NCBI RefSeq assembly: GCF_007858535.1
Contig: NZ_CP040174.1
Span: 2,852,001 to 2,916,000, forward strand
From: Arthrobacter sp. UKPF54-2
GTDB lineage: Bacteria; Actinomycetota; Actinomycetes; Actinomycetales; Micrococcaceae
Direction of reading: 5' to 3'
Length of the DNA stretch: 64,000 nt
The notes beneath the pieces are model-generated. The model saw only the letters and a list, made by a program, of their open reading frames with translations. It did not search any database and was not told the origin of the DNA. Numbering within the stretch: position 1 is the stretch's first letter; every line of letters begins with the position of its first letter. Of the stretch, positions 4,599-33,000 are shown piece by piece. The position numbers were made by a program, and so were the translations under genes.

Positions 4599-4604
4599 TA
4601 AAGT
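4599..4604 (+). promoter_or_regulatory. -10 element of the leuS leader (leaderless)
   Basis: TAAAGT ends exactly 6 nt before the ATG of the leuS leader peptide, so transcription should start at or next to that ATG. No good -35 is visible. Confidence 0.55.
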
Positions 4605-4610
4605 AGTTCC

Positions 4611-4637
4611 ATGCGCGCGATCCTTCTGCTTAGCTAG
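4611..4637 (+). CDS. leuS leader peptide MRAILLLS
   Basis: An eight-codon ORF (ATG ... TAG) encoding MRAILLLS, with three consecutive leucine codons (CTT CTG CTT at 4623-4631) just before the stop. It lies about 210 nt upstream of leuS, is preceded by a -10 hexamer at the leaderless distance, and is followed at once by two hairpins. This is the architecture of ribosome-mediated attenuation: scarce charged tRNA-Leu would stall the ribosome on the Leu run and change downstream RNA folding. The similarity to the leader peptide before leuA in this same window (MRAELLLLS...) supports it. Translation has not been shown. Confidence 0.65.
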   Translation: MRAILLLS

Positions 4638-4703
4638 CCGCCCGGCATCCCGAACTCCATCTCGGATTGCCGAGCGGCAGCCCCTCCATGTCGAGGGGCT
4701 TTT
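4638..4703 (+). promoter_or_regulatory. Putative leucine attenuator hairpins upstream of leuS
   Basis: Two consecutive hairpins follow the leader-peptide stop codon. Hairpin 1 pairs CCGCCCGGCA (4638-4647) with TGCCGAGCGG (4668-4677), with one mismatch. Hairpin 2 is a perfect 8-bp stem AGCCCCTC (4679-4686) / GAGGGGCT (4693-4700) with a 6-nt loop and a short T-rich tail (4700-4703, then GTGTGT), which looks like an intrinsic terminator. A ribosome stalled on the Leu codons would cover the 5' arm of hairpin 1. I could not identify an unambiguous antiterminator pairing. Confidence 0.55.
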
Positions 4704-4847
4704 GTGTGTCTGGGGTTGCCCCGGGCCGGCGGCAGGAAGGCCGCGGAAGATCAGCTGCCGGGCACGGGGAACCTACCCCGGCGGGGCGGAAGCTTGACAG
4801 GACCAGCGCTTGGAAACACAAGCCTGAAAAGACAGAAGAGGCCAGCA

Positions 4848-7382
4848 GTGAGCGTTCAGCCGGAGACAGAAACCGGAACAGCAGCAGCCGCAGCGAACGA
4901 AGGCCCCGAGGAGGGCGCCTACAGCTTCGCCGCCATGGAGGCCAAGTGGCCGCAGGTCTGGGAAGACCTCAAGGTCTTCACGCCCCTGGATGACGGTTCG
5001 AAGGAACGCCGCTACGTGCTCGACATGTTCCCGTACCCGTCCGGCGACCTGCACATGGGCCACGCCGAAGCGTTCGCGATGGGCGACGTCGTCGCGCGTT
5101 ACCTGCGCCAGCAGGGCTATGACGTGCTGCACCCGATCGGCTGGGACTCCTTCGGCCTGCCCGCGGAAAACGCCGCGATCAAGCGCAACGCGCACCCCAG
5201 CGAGTGGACCTACGCGAATATCGACACGCAGGCTGCATCCTTCAAGCGCTACGCCATTTCCGCCGACTGGTCCCGCCGGCTGCACACCTCGGACCCCGGC
5301 TACTACCGCTGGACCCAGTGGCTGTTCAAGCGCTTCTACGAGCGCGGCCTGGCCTACCGCAAGGACTCGCCGGTCAACTGGTGCCCCAAGGACCAGACCG
5401 TGCTGGCCAACGAACAGGTGGTCAACGGCGCCTGTGAGCGCTGCGGCACCGCCGTGACCAAGAAGTCCCTGAACCAGTGGTACTTCAAGATCACCGACTA
5501 CGCCGACCGCCTGCTGGACGACATGGACGAACTGCGCGGGCACTGGCCCGAGCGGGTCCTGGCCATGCAGAAGAACTGGATCGGCCGCTCCGAGGGCGCC
5601 CACGTCACCTTTGTGGTCGAGGCCGACGGCGGCAAGCCCGCCAAGGACGTCACCGTCTTCACCACCCGCCCGGACACCCTGTACGGTGCGACGTTCTTTG
5701 TGGTGGCCGCGGACGCGCCGCTCGCCGTCGACCTGGTCACCGAGGAACACGCCGCTGCCCTGGACGCCTACCGAGAGCAGGTGAAAGCGCTCTCCGAGAT
5801 CGAACGGCAGTCCACCGAACGGGAAAAGACCGGCGTCTTCACCGGCCGCTATGCCATCAACCCGCTCAACGGCGAGAAGCTGCCCGTCTGGGCCGCCGAC
5901 TACGTCCTGGCGGACTACGGCACCGGCGCCATCATGGCCGTCCCCGCCCATGACCAGCGCGACCTGGACTTCGCCAAGACCTTTGACCTGCCGGTCCGCG
6001 CGGTGCTGGACACCGGCGAGGAAGACCCCGCGGTCTCCGGCACGGCCACGGCCGGCGAGGGAACGCTGATCAACTCCGGCGCACTGGATGGCCTGCCCAA
6101 GGCCGAGGCCATCCCGGCGGCCATCGCGATCCTGGAGCAGCAGGGCACCGGGGAGAAGTTCGTGAACTTCCGCCTGCGCGACTGGCTGCTGAGCCGACAG
6201 CGGTTCTGGGGTACCCCGATCCCGATCATCCACTGCCCCGCGTGCGGCGAGGTGCCCGTCCCGGACGATCAGCTGCCGGTCACCCTGCCGGAGAACCTGC
6301 GCGGCGAAGACCTGTCCCCGAAGGGCACGTCCCCGCTGGCCGCCGCAGAGGCGTGGGTCAACGTGGAGTGCCCCAGCTGCCACGGCCCGGCCAAGCGTGA
6401 CACGGACACCATGGACACCTTCGTGGACTCGTCCTGGTACTTCCTGCGCTTCGTCTCGCCGGAGTACACCGAGGGCCCGTTCGACCCGGCCAAGATCAAC
6501 GACTGGATGCCGGTGGGCCAGTACGTCGGCGGCGTCGAGCACGCCATCCTGCACCTGCTGTACGCCCGCTTCTTCACCAAGGTCATCCACGATTTGGGCC
6601 TGATCGAGGCGGACGAGCCGTTCCGGGCGCTGCTGAACCAGGGCCAGGTGCTCAACGGCGGCAAGGCCATGAGCAAGTCCCTGGGCAACGGCGTGGACCT
6701 GGGCGAGCAGCTGGACAAGTTCGGCGTCGACGCCGTGCGCCTGACCATGATCTTCGCATCCCCGCCGGAGGACGACGTCGACTGGGCGGACGTCTCGCCG
6801 TCGGGCTCCGCGAAGTTCCTGGCCCGCGCCTGGCGGCTGGGCCAGGACGTTACGAGCGAACCCGGCGTCGACTTCGCCACCGGCGACCGTGCGCTGCGCA
6901 CTGTTACGCACCGCACCATCGCGGACGCCGAGGCGCTGCTGGATGCCAACAAGTTCAACGTGGTCGTGGCCAAACTGATGGAGCTGGTCAACGCGACCCG
7001 CAAAACGATTGACGCAGCCGGCGGCGCCGGCGGCGCGGACCCGGCCGTCCGCGAAGCCGTGGAAGCCGTCGCGGTCATCCTGAGCCTGTTCGCCCCCTAC
7101 ACGGCGGAGGACCTGTGGAACGCGCTGGGACACCCGGCGTCGGTGGCCAACGCCGGCTGGCCTACACACGACGAGGCCCTCCTGGTGCAGGACACGGTCA
7201 CTGCCGTCGTCCAGGTCCAGGGCAAGGTGCGCGACCGCCTCGAGGTGTCCCCGGCCATCTCCGAGGACGAACTGCGCGAACTGGCACTGGCCTCCGGGAA
7301 CGTCCAGCGCGCCCTGGACGGCCGGGGCATCCGCACCGTGATTGTGCGGGCGCCTAAACTGGTCAACATCGTCCCGGCCTAG
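4848..7382 (+). CDS. leuS: Leucyl-tRNA synthetase
   Basis: Class I aminoacyl-tRNA synthetase that charges tRNA-Leu in the cytoplasm. The 844-residue product has the HIGH motif as HMGH (residues 69-72), a central CP1 editing domain with the threonine-rich TTRPDTLYG signature, zinc-type cysteine pairs (CPKD/CERC and CPAC/CPSC), and the KMSKS loop as AMSKSLGNG. The GTG at 4848 is chosen because GAAGAGG lies just upstream and the product then starts like other actinobacterial LeuRS; the in-frame extension back to 4704 would run through the attenuator and is rejected. Expression is probably controlled by the leader peptide at 4611. Confidence 0.97.
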
Positions 7383-31111: not shown

Positions 31112-31117
31112 TAGTGT
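31112..31117 (+). promoter_or_regulatory. -10 element of the leuA leader
   Basis: TAGTGT ends exactly 6 nt before the GTG of the leuA leader peptide, the same geometry as in front of the leuS leader. Confidence 0.55.
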
Positions 31118-31123
31118 GAAAAT

Positions 31124-33000
<1,877 letters not shown>

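Follow-up and report, generated by a model that had tools for sequence, protein, structure and literature searches.

Classical attenuation requires an antiterminator that pairs with the 5' arm of the terminator. The E. coli trp, thr, leu, his and ilv attenuators, whose leaders are not leaderless, combine such pairing with runs of codons for the sensed amino acid, a logic of ribosome footprints and an intrinsic terminator. Seliverstov et al. (2005; PMC1262725) predicted attenuators of this classical kind for the leuS genes of S. avermitilis and S. coelicolor, and in S. lividans TK24 the leuS leader peptide LeuL2 (MRAVRLLLSEPR) is described as leaderless and as followed by a hairpin and uridines/terminator (PMC8079986). 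The M. tuberculosis ilvB1 leader resembles these leuS leaders in being an actinobacterial branched-chain leader, with regulatory codons that have been tested experimentally, but it senses Leu/Val/Ile for biosynthesis and has hairpins that are reported to exclude one another (PMC13236596). The actinobacterial LEU element of leuA is likewise a Leu-rich leader before a leucine gene; unlike a leuS attenuator, it is described as a pseudoknot that pairs with the Shine-Dalgarno site and has no obvious terminator, and the same source presents the element itself as disputed (PMC1262725). Finally, the mycobacterial polycysteine ORFs (Canestrari 2020) share with the leuS leaders a short leaderless ORF carrying consecutive codons for the amino acid that is sensed, but they sense cysteine and are reported to attenuate translation of downstream genes (PMC9031893, PMC13236596).

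Here we analyze a leuS leader in a 64,000-nucleotide stretch of DNA from Arthrobacter sp. UKPF54-2 (hereafter, the window), which belongs to a 3.5-Mb genome and whose closest named leuS relatives are Arthrobacter. A preliminary description had pointed to three successive Leu codons in a short ORF, a -10 hexamer at leaderless spacing, a mismatch-bearing stem and then a terminator-like stem ahead of leuS, together with a similar leader peptide at leuA; all of these are present (Table 1), the leuA leader having the same promoter spacing. Indeed, the pattern of TAnnnT, 6 nt, (A/G)TG and a short Leu-clustered ORF occurs at just two places in the 64-kb window, namely these two leaders. We infer that the leuS mRNA starts at the ATG of the leader ORF and is leaderless. 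The first base of hairpin A is the last base of the leader stop codon, the gap between hairpin A and the terminator is 0 nt, and the terminator (stem A GCCCCTC, loop CATGTC, stem GAGGGGC T) lies outside the ORF, 41 nt from its stop codon. The Rfam curated covariance models, the T-box included, gave 0 matches at gathering score across the whole window, and a T-box or other known RNA family was rejected for the leuS leader on this ground. The distance from the leader ATG to leuS is 237 nt in the window, compared with 134-218 nt in most related loci (L006 and L032 are longer still).

Table 1. Features of the leuS leader locus in the window and of the leucine and ilvB leaders compared with it (window positions unless stated).
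Feature	Position	Strand	Details and basis
-10 hexamer TAAAGT	4599-4604	+	read from sequence; 6 nt gap to ATG (leaderless spacing)
leader ORF MRAILLLS	4611-4637	+	ATG 4611; stop TAG 4635-4637
leader Leu codons CTT CTG CTT	4623-4631	+	sequence
hairpin A, GCCGC...GCGGC with inner mismatches	4637-4678	+	fold and covariation; proposed ribosome-gated antiterminator
intrinsic terminator	4679-4703	+	stem 4679-4700, T-run 4700-4703 (TTTT); sequence and fold
leuS, leucyl-tRNA synthetase	4848-7382	+	GTG start; ORF and homology
leuA leader, GTG 31124	31124-31180	+	-10 TAGTGT 31112-31117, leaderless spacing; separate from the leuS leader
ilvB leader (L232), MTAIVTTGRVACESAAGVSVVLTKRVAP	own genome, C1:2520052-2521746 and upstream		same tandem hairpins

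Judged by homology, the window locus is a Micrococcaceae member of the known actinobacterial leuS leader (leuL2) element, since a single covariance model matches both the window and nine elements that encode exactly the S. lividans LeuL2 peptide. The defining features of leuL2 are found here, with a Leu-rich ORF at leaderless spacing from a -10, a hairpin and terminator before leuS, and homology to the Streptomyces element. The two also differ: the Streptomyces peptide has 12 codons and ends inside hairpin A, whereas that of the window has 8 codons with its TAG at the base of hairpin A, and the Streptomyces element was published with an antiterminator, of which our fold test of leuS elements finds none. 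The interpretation in the preliminary description stands in part. As regards novelty, such a leader is not new, being known in Streptomyces (PMC1262725, PMC8079986), although no report of one in Micrococcaceae was found in the open-access literature, most subscription papers lying outside the search. What looks new here is the question of mechanism and not the type of element.

The model was built from 49 elements (alignment A1) and applied with a match threshold of E 0.01 for the genome counts. It matched 77 of 149 genomes of the family and 181 of 394 genomes of the class (own genome included), leaving 72 and 213, respectively, without a match; the genome scans used stricter filters and can be expected to have missed some elements, and not every match need be a leuS leader. 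This presence in 181 of the 394 class genomes argues that the leuS leader element is probably old in Actinomycetes. LeuS lies downstream on the same strand in 113 of the 121 matches examined in their loci, a set drawn from two locus scans (100 + 21) in which the two window matches are not re-counted. Among the eight matches without LeuS, one is at a contig end (L178), one was judged a chance match (L220), one was judged a leuA leader by its peptide (L221), and five were judged ilv-type from peptide or motif alone (L204, L205, L216, L219 and L222). There are also 21 leuS loci of other Actinobacteria that gave no model match at E 1 or better (one of them, L045, has almost no upstream DNA), and the no-match leuS loci include Kocuria, Yaniella, Thermobifida, Nocardiopsis, Agromyces and Leifsonia.

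Across relatives, the leaderless spacing is conserved, and so are the Leu codons and covarying stems, whose lack of conservation had been named in advance as refuting the leader. Of 45 rows, taken from loci whose LeuS is at least 80% identical (the window and L001 being one place), 35 encode exactly MRAILLLS, and the variants found across elements, besides MRAILLLS, are MRRTLLLT, MRTGLLLTGPR and the LeuL2 peptide. The letters CT-CTT are invariant in A1, though not in every one of the 121 matches examined, and in 153 of 163 elements the Leu run ends in CTT. The same codon is absent from the 71 Leu codons of leuS and the 51 of leuA, and accounts for 6 of 240 Leu codons in a set of four window ORFs and for 5 of 127 in one further ORF. 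A rare CTT suits a charging sensor; a constraint on the RNA could also keep it. Given these sequence features, the leuS element is very probably a leucine-responsive transcription attenuator. This points to control of leuS by leucine charging in Micrococcaceae, exerted by way of the leader element.

No -35 region is conserved upstream of TAnnnT in the leuS leaders, and their promoter is likely an extended -10. The start codon follows TAnnnT after 6 nt in 137 of 163 elements and after 7 nt in the other 26, counts that arise partly by construction, as the covariance model and the regular expressions were anchored on TAnnnT. A TGCGC-like block stands ahead of the hexamer, with G at -2 in 142 of 154 elements; the window reads GGCGC.

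The element exceeds chance expectation, hairpin A having support from covariation and both hairpins from folding. In A1 (49 sequences, with L006, L032, L063 and L096 left out, and L108 never included), 97.5% of the stem cells pair. Of 14 pairs, 5 are changed on both sides, a count attained by 2 of 500 shuffles, whose mean is 2.3. Counted by cell, 25 are changed on both sides, against a shuffle mean of 4.2, and the covariation score of 0.151 exceeds a shuffle mean of 0.064, being reached by 0 of 500 shuffles; with the partners slid, the score is at most 0.044. The fold tests drew on 164 sequences, 113 of them LeuS-linked matches and 51 from another locus set from which the exact duplicates L031, L033 and L035 had been dropped; the 164 became 163 after one with a truncated 5' end (L209) was lost. 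This fold set is not independent, since near relatives dominate it, the window's genome appears as both L001 and L111, and genome G002 as both L028 and L112; L041 and L151 also look identical over the element.

The two hairpins co-fold in all 163 parsed elements. Exactly two tandem domains follow the last Leu codon in 154 of these, while in the remaining 9 a weak closing stem encloses both hairpins, and these 9 are left out of the geometry counts. Among the 154 two-domain elements, hairpin A begins 4-5 nt past the last Leu codon in 149 and ends 0-1 nt before the terminator in 150, with a hairpin A length of anywhere from 20 to 59 nt. This full geometry is found in 146 of 154 elements, whereas dinucleotide shuffling of the linkers reproduces it in 140 of 3080 cases. 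A flush junction by itself is less telling, as it arises in 1264 of these 3080 shuffles. The universal co-folding would also fit a tandem terminator that lowers leuS transcription constantly, with the short ORF translated but non-regulatory, and hairpin clusters have been proposed as terminators (PMC8355165). However, such an arrangement leaves unexplained the Leu run, the rare last codon (153/163) and the fixed spacing between the Leu run and hairpin A (149/154), making it an improbable account of the element.

Ribosome footprints were computed under the rule that the leading edge lies at P site +16. When the A site holds the first codon of a three-Leu run, the distance between this edge and hairpin A is 0-1 nt in 123 of 126 elements. 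A ribosome with the last Leu codon in its A site overlaps hairpin A by 5-6 nt in 149 of 154 elements, and one with the stop codon there overlaps it by 11 nt or more in 154 of 154. The stop codon is at least 20 nt from the terminator in 142 of 154 elements, in agreement with the >20 bp reported for amino-acid attenuators (PMC4824070).

The terminator likewise bears on whether the element acts on translation, as has been proposed for the leuA LEU element, with the Leu codons pairing to the leuS Shine-Dalgarno sequence and a stalled ribosome freeing the site. By eye, CTCCTT resembles an anti-Shine-Dalgarno sequence, a base stem of such kind has been proposed for leuA (PMC1262725), and one Actinophytocola leader (L108) has a second hairpin without a T-run. 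Nonetheless, we regard translational control as highly improbable, as the U-rich terminator that follows most aligned elements would then be pointless. The L108 leader itself, found at 1247-1345 in a MAG, encodes MTTVVGLLLTRPR and retains hairpin A, with no T-run after the next hairpin; it is possibly a translational variant.

A transcription attenuator of the trp type makes a testable demand on the RNA, namely that a ribosome stall lets an antiterminator pair with the 5' arm of the terminator and exclude the terminator. We therefore folded the RNA from P site +16 to the terminator loop and calculated the ensemble free energy gained by engaging the terminator 5' arm, using pseudoknot-free folds without folding kinetics and, as controls, E. 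coli trpL, thrL, leuL, hisL and ilvL. The controls gained a median of 8.3-12.2 kcal/mol at their regulatory stalls and 0.0-0.2 at the stop codon (hisL, 3.7). In contrast, the 163 leuS elements gained a median of 0.35 kcal/mol at the first Leu codon, 2.0 at the last Leu codon and 2.7 at the stop; the element of the window gained 0.05 kcal/mol at Leu 1, 0.4 at Leu 2, 1.9 at Leu 3 and 1.7 at the stop. Median engagement of the arm is 0.40 at the stop codon compared with 0.13 at the first Leu codon, the reverse of a switch, and mean engagement exceeds 0.5 in 2 of 163 elements at the first Leu codon and in 41 of 161 at the stop. Given this low engagement relative to the controls, no base-paired antiterminator that excludes the terminator was found in the 163 leuS elements by the pseudoknot-free fold test with its five E. 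coli controls, and a textbook switch between two base-paired alternatives is unsupported.

The leuS elements thus share with the E. coli attenuators the run of regulatory codons, the footprint logic and the intrinsic terminator, but not an antiterminator that takes the 5' arm of the terminator, with the 14 partial exceptions among 163 that gain at least 4 kcal/mol at the last Leu codon in these pseudoknot-free folds. Engagement of the arm exceeds one half at one or another Leu stall in 25 of 163 elements, and at Leu 3 in 22 of the 134 three-Leu elements. Such cases lend something to the trp-type account, which is also the published prediction for Streptomyces leuS (PMC1262725); set against the medians above and against engagement that is greater at the stop than at the first Leu codon, we consider it unlikely. 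Three further pairings noticed by eye were examined in this connection. Pairing of the Leu codons with the 3' arm of the terminator (CUCCUU/GAGGGG) was set aside because it would make a stall promote termination and because the neighbouring 5' arm should outcompete the Leu codons, while CUUAGC/GCUGAG, seen in some relatives, and pairing of a post-terminator CCGG with ACCGGG were dropped, neither being kept in other lineages.

Hairpin A and the terminator adjoin and have no sequence in common. It follows that any exclusion of one by the other cannot rest on common bases, leaving two physical routes, a steric one and one of ribosome proximity, of which we favour the steric route. With leucyl-tRNA plentiful, the ribosome would reach the stop codon and cover at least 11 nt of the 5' arm of hairpin A, or depart, and the terminator would fold. 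With leucyl-tRNA scarce, a ribosome stalled on the Leu run would hold its leading edge immediately upstream of hairpin A, which could then form and, being flush with the terminator, would block it sterically, acting as the antiterminator. The final pairs of the terminator would close at or inside the RNA polymerase exit channel, and a flush upstream duplex would leave them no single-stranded slack; closure of the final 2-3 bp of a terminator hairpin is described as essential, and RNA polymerase as protecting 4-5 nt past the hybrid (PMC4824070). The footprint logic would remain that of trp attenuation, in which hairpin A forms at a stall and cannot form at the stop codon, with an exclusion that does not work through shared bases.

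The leucine response, the direction of control and the steric step are all inferred. The direction is supported by M. tuberculosis ilvB1, in which replacement of the LVVI regulatory codons is reported to leave reporter expression low and dose-independent (PMC13236596). For the steric step, our literature search found no precedent of a terminator excluded by an abutting upstream hairpin, and the treatment of clusters of adjacent hairpins as terminators (PMC8355165) speaks against the idea. Furthermore, with the footprint at the last Leu codon already on 5-6 nt of hairpin A (149/154), a ribosome stalled at that codon would leave hairpin A only partly free to form. Provided that the element is a leucine attenuator, we see the proposed flush-hairpin step as having a nearly even chance of being correct. 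The account as a whole, of a leucine attenuator homologous to Streptomyces leuL2 that works by steric exclusion through hairpin A, is offered tentatively, as somewhat short of an even prospect.

The second physical route would resemble E. coli pyrBI, where the position of a ribosome near the terminator decides termination. Here hairpin A would take up the intervening RNA, so that a Leu-stalled ribosome adjoins the terminator and itself prevents its folding. With hairpin A folded, the last Leu codon is indeed 4-7 nt from the terminator in 150 of 154 elements (SD 0.9), as opposed to 26-64 nt along the linear RNA (SD 8.1). Ribosomes at such distances repress termination in E. coli, where a stop codon placed 5 bp before tR2 is reported to reduce termination from ~90% to <10% (PMC4824070), and ribosomes are described as suppressing the pyrBI terminator (PMC5021804). 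The pyrBI terminator, however, lies inside the leader ORF and its signal is UTP (PMC4824070, PMC5021804). Computed from the footprint edge, the distance to the terminator is 2.0 nt at Leu 1, 6.9 nt at Leu 3 and 7.6 nt at the stop. The stop value is the larger one in 118 of 124 elements when set against Leu 1, but in only 76 of 124 when set against Leu 3. So small a difference between Leu 3 and the stop weakens the proximity model, which we hold to be somewhat unlikely, and we return to steric exclusion by hairpin A as the preferred reading.

The accepted account of leuS leaders therefore shows a gap, in that the hairpins adjoin yet do not compete for base pairs in the folds. Perhaps actinobacterial leuS leaders form a distinct class of attenuator, with non-overlapping, abutting hairpins that are exclusive by space and not by sequence, a proposal that we advance with some doubt. 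If it were true, the label of classical attenuator would be wrong for leuS leaders, and ilvB-type leaders might share the class. It may also bear on the Streptomyces ilvB and leuA codon mutants whose behaviour is reported as non-classical (PMC1262725).

In four ilv-type leaders (L204, L205, L216 and L222) and in the ilvB leader of the window's own genome (L232), a hairpin stands 0-1 nt before the terminator in 5 of 5. Energies come from L204, L205 and L216 only, where engagement of the arm yields 1.1-4.1 kcal/mol at the stalls and 4.0-4.1 at the stop; for L222 and L232 the parse took in only the inner part of the terminator, and L219 was left out of folding. Branched-chain sensing in these bacteria may generally use such a flush tandem-hairpin design, although five sequences make a small sample. 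In L232, UUACCA/UGGUAA and GCGCGUG/CACGCGC are interleaved by eye, and these pairings are a possible pseudoknot. The leuA leader of the window, which matches the LEU element in being a Leu-rich leader ahead of leuA, gave a weak match to the leuS covariance model (31112-31211, E 0.04), and has CTTAGC...GCCGC in common with the leuS leader.

Downstream of the leuS terminators, a CCGG motif recurs in related loci, mostly 8-9 nt past the terminator hairpin, where the window (4704-4715) has TCTGG. CCGG lies within 26 nt past the terminator in 94 of 154 elements, compared with a mean of 20 and a maximum of 30 in 200 mononucleotide shuffles.
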